This document shows, in pieces, positions 22,079 through 28,165 of a stretch of DNA of 64,000 nucleotides (within the stretch, counting starts at the first letter, position 1; each line of letters opens with the position of its first letter). The notes beneath the pieces were generated by a model, which saw nothing but the letters and a program-made list of their open reading frames with translations, was not told the DNA's origin and ran no database searches. A program made the position numbers and the translations under genes. Source of the stretch: an uncultured Bacilli bacterium (GTDB taxonomy: Bacteria; Bacillota_I; Bacilli_A; RFN20; DUOF01); the NCBI GenBank assembly GCA_944363575.1, contig CALVUJ010000001.1:1-64000 (forward strand). Reading direction: 5' to 3'.

Positions 22079-24584
22079 TTATTGATTTTTTTTGATGTTT
22101 TGATTTTTCCAAATGATATATTGTTCATTAGAACTATCTCCTAAATAGGTATGTTCATCTGTTCCATAATTAATTGCTTGATATAATTCTAGTGATTTAT
22201 TTTTGTGTTTTTTTATTTGCTTGTTGAGATCATTTAAATGCATTCCTACCGTTATTGTTTTAAGTGGTTTATCTTTATTTTCTTCATTGTATTTTTCGGC
22301 AAATGATTTAACTGCTAATTCATATTTCTTATATATTAATTCTTTATCTTCTTCACTAACATTAATATTAACTTCAACATTATTACATACCCCATATCTT
22401 TCATTTCTATTTATATATAATGTTGATTTAGCTATTATCTCACCTTTATTATTCTTTATTACAATGTTTTGTACATCTGGATGCACAATACTTGCCCGCA
22501 TTATCCCATATCCAGTTCCTTCAAGATGTGCACAACAGGAGCATAATTTCCCTAAAATAAAATTAATTGGTGAATCTTTAGATAACAATTCAAAAGTAAA
22601 TTTTTTATTTGCTAGTTCTGTAATTGTTGATAAGGTGTCTTTATTAATATCATTAATTTCTTTTTTATAATCTTCAATTGTTTTAAAAAGATCTGTTTCT
22701 TTTAAATGATTATTTAAGATGTGGTTTGGAGTATTGTTTTCCATTCTTTCTTGGTTTATTTTAATGGCATTGTTAAAAGAAGCTTGTCTAGAAAAATAAG
22801 GAGCAATTGTTTCTGCGATAGGTCTAGTTTCTTCATTAATTCCAGCAAACTTATTTTTAATAAAATAATCTTTACATTTTTCTACGGTTACTAATAATTG
22901 CCTTTGATTTCCTTTATTTGAAGTATGTGCTTTTTCAATTTTTTTAAATTCATTATAACATCTAGCGATAAATCCAGACTGTTTTCTTTCTTCTTCTAAT
23001 AATTTTTCAAAATTATTTTTATCTAAGAAGAATTTAGTAAAATTAGGATTAAATTCATTAAATTCCATGCTATCAAACATTGTATGTATTTTATCAAAAG
23101 ATAATTTTATTTGAGTTAGGGCATTCGTTATGAATTCTTCTATTTTTTGAGCGTAATCTATAGTTATTTCTATTTCATTTCCTGATTTTGTTTTTCTTTT
23201 TTTGGTAATTGGCTGTAGAAATCCACCTAAATTATAATAAAATTTTATAAAATCATTAAAGCTTTTTTCTTTAAGTTTATCGTTAATATGAATTTTATTA
23301 AAAAATTTCATGTTTTTATTTTTAACGAAATTTAAGAAGTTTTCTTTATTTAATTGTGTACATAAATAATTATAAACTTTAAATAGTGTTTCTTTATTAC
23401 TAGCATTATTATATTCTTCTAAAAAAATATTTTTTTCTTTCCAATGAATAATAATTAAACGATTTAAAATTTCATTATCACTAATTTCTATTTTTTCTCC
23501 AGTTATATTAGGATTATTAGTTAGATGAAAGTAGTTTTCGTTTTTTATAATGTATTGGAAGTTTTCAAAGGGAATAGCATGTTCTCCAATGTTTGTTATA
23601 TTTTTTGAAAGGGTCATTTCTTTTAGGGAGTTGCATCCATAAAAAGCATCTTGTTCTATACTTGTTACGTTATTTGGAATGGCTATTTCTTTTAATGAAG
23701 TGCAATCAAAAAAAGAAAAGGCACTTATGTTTGTTATTTTTTTTGAGAGTACTATTTTTCGTGCAGATGAGCATGTGAAAAAGGCACTTTTACCTATATT
23801 TGTTACACTGTCAGGAATAATTATTTCTTGTAAAGAAGTGCAATCAGAGAAAGCTTCATCACCAATACTAGTTACATCAGTTGGAATGGTTATTTTTTTT
23901 AGTGAAGAACATTTAGAAAAAGCATTATTGCCTATATTTGTAAGATTTTTTGGAATAATTATTTTTTTTTAATTATTAGCAGTTGAAAAAAGCATTTTGT
24001 TCTATACTTGTTACATTTTGGGGAATAATTATTTCTTGTAAAGAGGTGCAATTATAAAAAGTTCCTTGACTTATATTTGTTATTTTTTCTGGTAATTTTA
24101 TTTTTTTTAAAGAAGAGCAATTATAAAAAGCGTAATTTCCGATACTTTTTATTTTTTTAGGAAGCATAATAGCTTTTAATGATTTACAAAGGCGAAATGT
24201 TTCATCATTTATTTTATCTATATATATAGGAATAGTTATCTTTTTTAATGATTTACAGTTAGAGAAAGCACTATTACCAATACTAGTTATGCTTTTTGGA
24301 ATAGTTATTTTTTTTAATGACCCACAATAAAAACAAGAATGGTCACCGAGAGTTGTTACTCCTTTTAAAATTGTCATTTTTTGTAACGATGCACACGCAT
24401 AAAAAGCATAATTTTCTATGTTTGTTATGCTTCCAGGAATAATTATTTCTTTTAATTCATGGCAATCAGAAAAAGCACGATAACGTATTGTTACGATAGA
24501 TTTCCAAAACTCTTTTGGATTACTTTTTAGAAAACCTATGTCACTATCAGTGACTTTTATTAGAGAACCATTTACTTTTTTCAT
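22079..24584 (-). pseudogene. BspA-like leucine-rich-repeat protein, split by stops and an A9 tract
   Basis: The first part (ATG 24584 to TAA 23976) is an LRR_5/BspA array with units like LKKITIPKSITSIGNSAFSN. The array continues past the break in another frame (LKKIIIPKNLTNIGNNAFSK and later units to about 23580). It then runs into a 490-residue C-terminal region ending at 22079. The break has two tandem TAA codons (23973-23978) and a run of nine A (complement of 23962-23970) where eight would restore frame, so slippage alone cannot repair it. The C-terminal region has a CSCCAHLEGTGYGIM box and HPDVQNIVIKNNKGEIIAKS; I do not recognise it. There is no signal peptide. A second product could start at ATG 23617. 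Confidence 0.75.
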
Positions 24585-24835
24585 TCTGTTACACCAACTT
24601 ATTCATATTATATCATGATAAGATATAATGTGAAGAAGAAATTTTTTTACAAAAATAAATCTTTTGTTTTTTTGAATTAATTATGAGTTTTATTTGAAAA
24701 GAGTGTATGTATTTTTAGTGTATTGTTTTTTGGAAGAATTTAAAATTTAGTTTTTAATATTTGCGTTAACTAGATTTTGTTAGTAAAAAATTATTTGGTA
24801 ATATTAATTAGATTAGAATAAAATTTTGATTATCG

Positions 24836-25101: not shown

Positions 25102-25746
25102 ATGAAAAAGATTGATGAAAATTATTTTAAAGTTGTAAATAATAAGAAAATTTGCGAAATAGAAGATGTTTTAGAGCAAGATGAGCATATTTTATGGAGA
25201 GATAAGCCACATAAGAAGTCTTATGTTTGGTCAAACTTTTTTTCTTTATTGCCAATTGCACTTATATGGTTAGTGGCTGATTCTTTTTTTATTTGGATGA
25301 TGATTAGTTCTGGTGCATTTGAAGAAATGGATGCTTTTTTCATTGTATTTATAATAGCTTTTTTTCTGCTTCATTTAATGCCTGTATGGATTTGGATTAG
25401 TTCTGTGGCTAAAGCGAAGTTAGAGCATAAAAATATTGAGTATGTTTTTACTGAAAAAAGGATTATTATTAGGAGTGGAATTATTGGAATTGATATTCAA
25501 TCGGTTTATTATAGTGATATTGAATCGGTAAATCTCAAAGTAGGTTTAATTGATAAGATTTATAAAGTAGGAGATGTTTATCTTGTTGCTAGTAATGGTA
25601 AGTATGTTTTGTTTGATATAAAGAATCCTTATGATATAACAAGTAAACTGCAAAAGATTACATTAGATATTAAAGCTGATATTTATTATCCAAATGCCTA
25701 TAGGCCAACGGAGAATAAAGGATATAACACTAAATATAAGGGGTGA
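25102..25746 (+). CDS. PH-domain (bPH2/YdbS-type) membrane protein
   Basis: The 214-residue protein has a soluble start (DEHILWRDKPHKKSYVW), two membrane helices (about residues 45-65 and 75-100), then a bacterial PH-like domain: EYVFTEKRIIIRSGIIGIDI, YYSDIESVNLKVGLIDKIYK, GDVYLVASNGKYVLFDI. Bacterial PH2 proteins are linked to membrane stress and antimicrobial tolerance, but the role here is unknown. It lies between the leucine T-box and leuS with a 4-base gap, so it is co-controlled by leucine charging. Confidence 0.8.
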   Translation: MKKIDENYFKVVNNKKICEIEDVLEQDEHILWRDKPHKKSYVWSNFFSLLPIALIWLVADSFFIWMMISSGAFEEMDAFFIVFIIAFFLLHLMPVWIWISSVAKAKLEHKNIEYVFTEKRIIIRSGIIGIDIQSVYYSDIESVNLKVGLIDKIYKVGDVYLVASNGKYVLFDIKNPYDITSKLQKITLDIKADIYYPNAYRPTENKGYNTKYKG

Positions 25747-25750
25747 AATA

Positions 25751-28165
25751 ATGAGTTATAATTTTAAAAAAACAGAAGAAAAGTGGCAAAAATATTGGTC
25801 TGAGCATCATAGTTTTGAAGCTATTAATGGCGGGGATAAACCTCCGTATTATATTTTAGTAGAGTTTCCTTATCCATCAGGGTCAGGGTTACACGTTGGG
25901 CATGTTAGAAGTTATACTGCTCAAGATGCTTTAGCAAGGATGAAAAGAATGCAAGGGTTTAATGTTTTGTATCCAATGGGTTGGGATGCTTTTGGGGCAC
26001 CTGCAGAGCAATATGCGATTAAAAATCATATTCATCCAAAAGATGCAGTAAAAGAAAATATTAAAACTTTTAAAAAGCAAATGCAGACGTTAGGTTTTTC
26101 TTTTGATTGGAACAGAGAATTTTCAACAACGGATCCAGAGTATTATAAATGGACACAATGGCAATTTTTACAGTTTTATAAACATAATATGGCTTATAAG
26201 GATTCTGTTTCTGTTAACTGGTGTCCTAATTGTAAGACTGTTTTATCTAATGAAGATGCAGCTGGAGGAGTATGTGAAAGATGTGGTTGCGAAGTTGTTC
26301 AAAAAGAAAAAGAACAATGGATGCTTAGAATGGGTGATTATGCAGAAGATTTGTTGAAGGGGTTAGATGATACTAATTTTGCTGATAAAGTTAAGTTAGG
26401 GCAAATAAACTGGATTGGGAAGTCTAGTGGTGTTGAAGTAGATATTAATATAGTAGGTGGAGGAAAGTTTTCAATTTTTACGACTTGTATTGAGACTATT
26501 TATGGTATTACTTTCTTTGTTATTGCTCCAGATGGAAAATTAATTAAAGAGTTAATGCCTAGGATAGAAAACAAGGAAGAAGTTATGGCTTATATTAATG
26601 AAACAGCTAAGAAATCTAATATGGATAGGACGGAGTTAAATAAAGGGAAAAGTGGATGTCTTGTTAAGGGAATTAAGGCAATTAATCCTGTAAATGGTAA
26701 GGAAGTTCCTGTCTTTTTAGGGGATTTTGTTTTGGGTAATTATGGTACAGGTGCCGTTATGGCTGTTCCTAGTCATGATCAAAGAGATTTTGAGTATGCA
26801 AAAGAGCATAATATTGAAATGATTCAAGTTATTTCAGGTAGAGATGTTAGTGAAGCTGCTTTTGAGAAGCATGATTATTTAGGTAAGGGTTGCAAACTTA
26901 TTAATTCAGGAGAGTTTGATGGGTTAACTGTTGAAGAAGCAAAGAAGAAGATTACGGAGAAATTAGTTAAAGAAGGTATTGCTAGGGAAGTAAATAATTA
27001 TAAGATGAGAGATTGGATTTTTTCACGTCAAAGATTTTGGGGTGAGCCTATTCCGATGATTTATTGTAAGAAGTGTGGATGGCAACCAATGAAGGAAGAA
27101 GACTTACCACTTGTTTTACCTGATGTAGCAGAGTATGAACCTACGGAGAGTGGTGAAAGTCCACTTGCTAATATTAGTGATTGGGTTAATACTACTTGTC
27201 CTAAGTGTGGGGGTCCTGCGAAAAGAGAAACTGATACAATGCCTAACTGGGCTGGTTCAAGCTGGTATTTCTTGCGTTTTATGGATGCTAGAAATGATAA
27301 AGAGTTTGCTAGTATGGAGGCTATGAAGTATTGGAATAAAGTTGATTGGTATAATGGTGGAATGGAACATACGGCGAGACATTTATTGTATGCTAGATTT
27401 TGGGTTCAGTTCTTGTATAATATTGGGTTAGTTCCTAATAAAGAAATGATTTGGACTCGTGTTAGTCATGGGATGGTTTTAGGTTCTAATAATGAGAAGA
27501 TGAGTAAGTCTAAGGGTAATGTTATTAATCCTGATGATATTGTTAATGAGTATGGAGCGGATACTTTAAGGGTATATGAAATGTTTATGGGGGATTATGA
27601 ACAAGATGCACCTTGGAGTACAGATTCTTTAAAAGGTTGTAAAAGATTTATTGATAAAGTTATTAGATTATATGATAAGGTAAATGATAAAGAAGGATAT
27701 AGTAAAGATTTAGAGTCTCTTCAACATAAGACAATTAAGAAGATTACTAATGATTTGGTAACAATGGCTTATAATACGGCTGTTTCTGCACTTATGATTT
27801 TAGTTAATGCTTATGAAGATAAAGATAGTGTTACTAAAGAAGATTATCATTTGCTTCTTACTTTATTAGATCCTTTAGCACCTCATATTAGCGAAGAGTT
27901 AAATGAAAAATTAGGTTATAAACCTCTATGTGAGTCTAGTTGGCCAGTTTATGATGAAAGTAAGACCGTTGATAATGAACTAGAGATTGCTGTACAGGTT
28001 AATGGTAAGCTTAGGGGGACAATTAAAATTAGAAAAGATGAGGATGATGAGGTAGTTAAGAAGATTGCTTTTGATGTAGAGAATGTAAAGCATAATATTG
28101 AGGGTAAAGAAATTAAGAAGGTTATTGTAGTTAAGAATAAGATAGTTAATATTGTTGCAATTTAA
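25751..28165 (+). CDS. leuS: Leucine--tRNA ligase
   Basis: The 804-residue class I synthetase charges tRNA-Leu. It has the HIGH-type box PYPSGSGLHVGHVRSY near residue 40, a zinc-type knot WCPNCKTVLSNEDA with CERCGC, the editing domain around 220-400, a second knot CKKCGW/CPKCGG, and the KMSKS box NEKMSKSKGN near 580. The anticodon-binding C-terminal domain is complete. ATG 25751 has a GGGGTGA site; a 57-base upstream extension overlaps the previous gene and was rejected. Regulation is by the upstream leucine T-box. Confidence 0.97.
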   Translation: MSYNFKKTEEKWQKYWSEHHSFEAINGGDKPPYYILVEFPYPSGSGLHVGHVRSYTAQDALARMKRMQGFNVLYPMGWDAFGAPAEQYAIKNHIHPKDAVKENIKTFKKQMQTLGFSFDWNREFSTTDPEYYKWTQWQFLQFYKHNMAYKDSVSVNWCPNCKTVLSNEDAAGGVCERCGCEVVQKEKEQWMLRMGDYAEDLLKGLDDTNFADKVKLGQINWIGKSSGVEVDINIVGGGKFSIFTTCIETIYGITFFVIAPDGKLIKELMPRIENKEEVMAYINETAKKSNMDRTELNKGKSGCLVKGIKAINPVNGKEVPVFLGDFVLGNYGTGAVMAVPSHDQRDFEYAKEHNIEMIQVISGRDVSEAAFEKHDYLGKGCKLINSGEFDGLTVEEAKKKITEKLVKEGIAREVNNYKMRDWIFSRQRFWGEPIPMIYCKKCGWQPMKEEDLPLVLPDVAEYEPTESGESPLANISDWVNTTCPKCGGPAKRETDTMPNWAGSSWYFLRFMDARNDKEFASMEAMKYWNKVDWYNGGMEHTARHLLYARFWVQFLYNIGLVPNKEMIWTRVSHGMVLGSNNEKMSKSKGNVINPDDIVNEYGADTLRVYEMFMGDYEQDAPWSTDSLKGCKRFIDKVIRLYDKVNDKEGYSKDLESLQHKTIKKITNDLVTMAYNTAVSALMILVNAYEDKDSVTKEDYHLLLTLLDPLAPHISEELNEKLGYKPLCESSWPVYDESKTVDNELEIAVQVNGKLRGTIKIRKDEDDEVVKKIAFDVENVKHNIEGKEIKKVIVVKNKIVNIVAI

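Follow-up and report, generated by a model that had tools for sequence, protein, structure and literature searches.

A split LRR gene in an uncultured Bacilli genome as the probable remnant of a probably cytosolic LRR-linker-GNAT-like protein

On the minus strand of the 64,000-nucleotide stretch analysed here (the window, from the genome of an uncultured Bacilli bacterium), one gene consists of an LRR_5 array followed by a linker and then by a C-terminal core, and it is interrupted by a frameshift together with stop codons. The same order runs uninterrupted in relatives, and the core constitutes a family of its own. We favour, with a probability of about 0.6, the reading that the window gene represents a broken copy of a gene for an LRR-linker-GNAT-like protein, which is probably cytosolic. 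The LRR part is already known, and the fold of the core probably is as well. The LRR-core fusion and the loop-less core family with its CC pair are unnamed in the libraries searched (Pfam, NCBIfam, PHROGs and PADLOC). No paper on an LRR-GNAT fusion was found by title in the literature searched; subscription journals fell mostly outside it, so this absence is not proven.

The gene and its break

The N half is an ORF of 202 aa (24584-23976, minus strand), which starts at ATG 24584 according to the ORF list and its translation and closes on two consecutive TAA codons with first bases at 23978 and 23975. The C half, with LRRs followed by the C-terminal part, is open on the same strand from 23968 to 22082, that is over 629 codons, with its stop at 22079; the chance of such an opening, calculated from base composition, is about 3.6e-28. 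Both halves carry LRR_5 (PF13306) matches, with 220.9 and 133.6 bits compared with a curated cut-off of 27.7 (E 4.8e-66 for the N half and 4.6e-39 for the LRR part of the C half). The two halves do not share a reading frame (mod-3 classes 2 and 1). Between them, an A9 tract occupies positions 23962-23970, downstream of the N-frame stops in mRNA sense. A separate TAA, at 23971, closes the C-half frame and shares two bases with the start of the tract. Because the N-frame stops precede the A9 tract and the C-frame TAA overlaps its start, one slip at the tract cannot join the halves. The original prediction had described a tandem TAA pair and an A9 tract dividing two LRR halves; all of these elements are present, within 23962-23978, and the frame shift comes in addition to what had been stated.

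The LRR part of the C half covers about residues 1-132 (23573-23968, phmmer range), and 497 residues are left after it, in agreement with the open C-terminal part of 490 residues proposed earlier. The stretches CSCCAH and HPDVQNIVIKNNKGEIIAKS, which had been singled out in this part, are both found in the translation of the C half, where a second lesion was not seen. The linker (22610-23572) comes out as mostly helical in the model of the 483-aa C part, whose confidence is too low for conclusions on this region. Towards its end it shows conservation among the LRR relatives, and an alignment of 18 LRR-type linkers yields the pattern F..I...tSnkG.qR.LkvT...c..y....kF. The GNAT-like core follows at 22079-22609 (176 aa plus the stop), with its CC pair and its GEIIAKS, NNVE, VG and Y-GDS-Q stretches.

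The gene sits between an 85-aa gene with no Pfam match and a bacterial PH-domain gene (25102-25746) led by a T-box (Rfam RF00230, 24868-25070). The next gene, 25694-28165, was recognised by eye and is taken to be leuS; as the T-box lies ahead of both the PH-domain gene and leuS, one leader may serve the two. None of eight neighbour proteins of the window gene matches the 14 kb around the related gene L068 in another genome (G002), and thus no synteny was found between these two places. The scanned neighbours gave no clear sign of a defence-island setting, looking household-like (class I tRNA synthetase, glycerophosphotransferases, dicarboxylate symporter) or being unmatched; a PADLOC scan of 10 neighbours of four loci gave one weak LmuB match (E 3.7e-4).

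The C-terminal core and its likely fold

The C-terminal domain had been called unfamiliar, a claim staked on a search of this domain alone, and the libraries bear this out. For the 483-aa C part, Pfam returned only sub-cut-off rows, NCBIfam and PHROGs gave no match at E 1, and in PDB sequence searches no row was better than E 0.066. No PADLOC match was obtained at E 0.1 with the 629-aa C half, nor with the related proteins L004, L002 and L003. The unfamiliarity may not extend to the fold, as models and profile point to a diverged GNAT-like fold.

The AlphaFold2 model of the 176-aa core, built from four sequences, has a pLDDT of 61.2 and a pTM of 0.58. It comprises a strand, two helices, three strands, a helix, a strand and a helix. 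Compared with the PDB by Foldseek, it gave 16 matches out of 629 at E <=0.001, of which 15 are named acetyltransferases and one (4f6a) bears no function in its title; the TM values are mostly 0.3-0.4. Acetyltransferases also account for most of the 50 rows listed by VIA-align, with a best Z of 7.5, although Z values under 8 may reflect a common arrangement of elements. In a second model, of the 483-aa part (pLDDT 45.3, from two of the same sequences), residues 307-435 retrieved mostly GNAT matches, the best with a Z of 8.9 and an rmsd of 2.9 over 89 residues. The two models rest on four and two sequences, respectively, those of the window and L004 being common to both.

A profile of 34 core rows, chosen with near-duplicates and weak matches omitted, was compared by hhalign with 23 GNATs, used out of 29 matches in four genomes of the window's bacterial family. 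The score of 27.3, with a stated probability of 24%, lies above those of all 200 column shuffles (at most 15.9), of the reversed profile (9.7) and of an unrelated PcfJ profile (12.3). It was 25.8 (probability 15%) before gap columns were removed and 23.3 (8%) with a smaller alignment of 10 rows. The similarity runs from strand 2 to strand 5. The acetyl-CoA pyrophosphate loop, searched in its simple form [RQ]xxGx[GA], is found at the strand 4-helix 3 junction in none of the 34 rows, the pattern occurring away from the junction in seven of them. Conserved residues include Cys26 (34/34), Cys25 (32/34), Asn/Asp76 (34/34) and Glu79 (31/34).

The core resembles the GNAT superfamily in the modelled order of strands and helices, in the fold matches of both low-confidence models, in the profile similarity and in a conserved Glu at the strand-4 position, where several GNATs keep a base. 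It differs from it by the loop missing at the junction, by the invariant cysteine and by the lack of a Pfam GNAT match. Taken together, models and profiles support a GNAT-like fold devoid of the usual acetyl-CoA loop. Because of this absent loop, the low profile probability and the weak models, the core is termed GNAT-like here and is not filed as a GNAT acetyltransferase. With the PcfJ family (PF14284), the likeness consists of a Cys followed by strands, and a PcfJ-like phage protein ranks 14th among weak viral fold matches. A PcfJ identity was rejected, with an hhalign probability of 0.2% against four PcfJ proteins and PF14284 absent from the matches listed at E 1 for the C part of the window gene.

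Relatives, distribution and turnover

Counting the window genome, the core occurs in 2 of 279 genomes of the order and in 6 of 392 genomes of the phylum sample. One other family of the class has it frequently, in 76 of 291 sampled genomes. Two relatives, L002 (776 aa, uninterrupted) and L003, are both found in one of four genomes of the window's bacterial family. L004, from a Clostridia MAG, is an uninterrupted protein of 652 aa that reaches 39% in its best segment by protein search; the window core is its sister in the core tree (support 99/96). No second copy of the C part was found in the window genome, for which a single further LRR_5 match is listed, within a frame of 1224 aa (G000:C2:14488-14697).

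Fifty-two core proteins, chosen mostly from the stronger matches, were inspected (40 retrieved stretches, with L004, L015 and the window). LRR_5 arrays are present in 21 of them, the window C half included. In 18 of these 21 proteins the core is followed by 1-25 residues before the C-terminus; in the three L133 copies, 235-237 residues follow. Among the other 31 proteins, eight were scanned with Pfam and none had a match above cut-off; L116, counted with these non-LRR proteins, is cut at a contig end and is placed among the LRR type in the core tree. A single origin of all 21 LRR-bearing cores was rejected by an AU test (p 0.0026), in which long branches are in play and L116 counts as non-LRR. 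A protein of about 340 aa directly follows a large non-LRR core protein at eight loci (L049, L050, L051, L052, L053, L055, L056 and L058), and shorter relatives of it occur at L054, L060 and L126. The one member scanned shows sub-cut-off similarity to aldehyde dehydrogenase (PF00171, 18.9 versus 23 bits, E 6e-4).

Besides L004 and L002, uninterrupted LRR relatives are found at L062 (two), L063 (two), L065, L117, L119 (two), L120, L121, L125-L127 and L133 (three). LRR members stand in tandem at L062, L063, L119, L124 and L133. A start codon before or at the LRR head, in the frame of the core, is present in 19 of the 20 other LRR members. The exception, L124:3144-5609 (G856:C55, in another family), contains one in-frame TAA within its LRR array. 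With the window, this makes 2 interrupted genes out of 21, a count in which, among the other LRR members, the upstream stretch was inspected for further cut-off LRRs at L124 only. As for location, hydropathy shows no signal-peptide-like start in the window N half or in any other LRR member, the best 19-residue mean in the first 60 residues being 0.33 for the window and at most 1.29 for the other LRR rows. The LRR-linker-GNAT-like protein is probably cytosolic.

The core is also present in three Microcystis phage records. One of them was read as ORF68L of MaMV-DC (AGR48633.1; L015:2528-4618, KF356199.1 57108-59201), which lies two genes from ORF70, a gene termed holin-like in a paper (PMC12843271). 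The ORF68L core is 26.7% identical to P0003, 37.3% to L010 over 66 residues and 19% to the window core. Unlike the window protein, ORF68L has no LRR match, and it is annotated as a hypothetical protein. Pattern scans of IMG/VR confirmed no relative with the bacterial queries and gave four contigs with the Microcystis phage protein as query; Butyrivibrio virus Ceridwen showed a weak partial match (E 0.04). A phage or plasmid origin of the window gene was rejected, its C part being unmatched in 50,697 phage and 72,556 plasmid records.

At L133:2012-11490 (G885:C1), three LRR-GNAT-like genes in tandem share, close to the 3-prime end, a stretch of 1.2 kb with 100% DNA identity. In the first 1.6 kb, which encode the LRRs and the linker, the identity of copy 1 to the two other copies is 51-71% (up to column 1600), and that between copies 2 and 3 is 80-93%. 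This triplet suggests a variable sensor set on a constant effector. The pattern agrees with recombination by which the effector end stays uniform and the sensor end is free to change, as seen at one locus of a draft genome. A broader interpretation, which we offer as tentative and rather doubtful, would extend this to the small-genome relatives as a whole. They would possess a large, fast-varying family of intracellular receptor-like proteins, in which a GNAT-like effector, loop-less and marked by the invariant cysteine, stays constant and carries variable LRR or other long N-terminal sensors. Gene conversion would keep the effector uniform and the sensor would diversify, following a logic like that of NLR immune receptors, and the window copy would be a casualty of this turnover.

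Competing readings and what the family may mean

The original prediction had left two possibilities for the window gene, expression of the C-terminal part alone from ATG 23617 or recent breakage. The second fits better, because 19 of the 20 other LRR-bearing proteins inspected run on in the core frame from the LRR head and the C half is clean. That the breakage is recent is deduced from this clean C half, the genomes searched holding no second one of the genus. A separate working gene, made of a few LRRs, the linker and the core and starting at ATG 23617 (23615-23617) or at an uncommon start, appears unlikely. The 629 codons still open would agree with it, as would the short LRR arrays of some relatives (residues 13-141 in L004 and 33-116 in L126). 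The proposed codon is indeed the first ATG, GTG or TTG of the C-half frame, but it lies inside the last LRRs and a start there costs 117 open residues. Separate expression from it finds little in the promoter-like sites. By consensus matching, the region has 28 of them versus 24.9 expected in shuffles (sd 5.4), which is not above chance, and the internal ones on the gene strand match at 9 of 12 positions. The best site, of the extended -10 type (TTCACA, 16 nt, TG, TATAAT; 24607-24634, minus strand; 11/12), lies 22 bases upstream of ATG 24584 and would feed the N half. No ribosome site is clear by eye at ATG 23617, though the same is true of ATG 24584.

An error of assembly or sequencing, or a minority strain allele, would leave the gene intact in the living population. 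The break coincides with one of only two 9-base A/T runs in the 64 kb, the longest of the window, and the genome assembly consists of 26 contigs with a completeness of about 91%, both of which lend this some weight. We nevertheless hold it to be improbable: with N-frame stops ahead of the A9 tract and a C-frame stop overlapping its start, the break amounts to more than a change in run length, and the other long ORFs of the window (823, 863, 1057 and 1437 aa) are open. The A-rich LRR repeats, with 5.2 A/T runs of at least 7 bases per kb in the gene versus 1.7 in the window, could also invite programmed recoding or phase variation, by which frameshifting or slippage would link the halves in a fraction of the population. 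This excess of runs is partly due to the gene being richer in A+T (24.3% G+C in the C half versus 28.8% in the window). The interrupted gene at L124 offers a second case in favour, but the stops of the window gene would demand no fewer than two shifts, and the uninterrupted state of the other 19 of 20 LRR members inspected speaks against such a mechanism, which is very unlikely. Hardly credible, finally, is the view that the gene encodes a BspA-like surface adhesin of the ordinary kind, whose C-terminal part would be unrelated. In its favour are LRR_5 and a similarity to the adhesin HupY that is weak and far under cut-off (78.5 versus 1250 bits). The original label of BspA-like is justified for the LRR array itself, which resembles those of BspA-type proteins (PF13306), and should not be taken to mean a surface adhesin: no secretion signal was seen by hydropathy, the C-terminus is a fused GNAT-like core, and this core is a conserved domain that also exists without LRRs and in phages.

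Under the favoured reading of a disrupted copy, the window gene would be a young pseudogene, with replication slippage in the A-rich LRR repeats as the probable cause. It would yield at most the short LRR fragment of 202 aa, and the C half would be little translated. In the intact relatives, the LRR array may bind a specific partner, upon which the core would transfer a group of the acyl or aminoacyl type, or bind such a donor. The candidate site consists of the invariant cysteine and of two conserved positions, Asn/Asp and Glu, in the strand that precedes the missing loop.

What had been an unknown domain becomes a defined family for which a fold is likely, the conserved residues are clear and intact members are available for testing. 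About one in four sampled genomes of one family of the class carries its core, which still has no name in the libraries searched. If the loop-less GNAT-like fold is active, it would imply an unusual transferase chemistry, and if the LRR ends are under diversification, a receptor-like system would exist in bacteria known mostly from their genomes.
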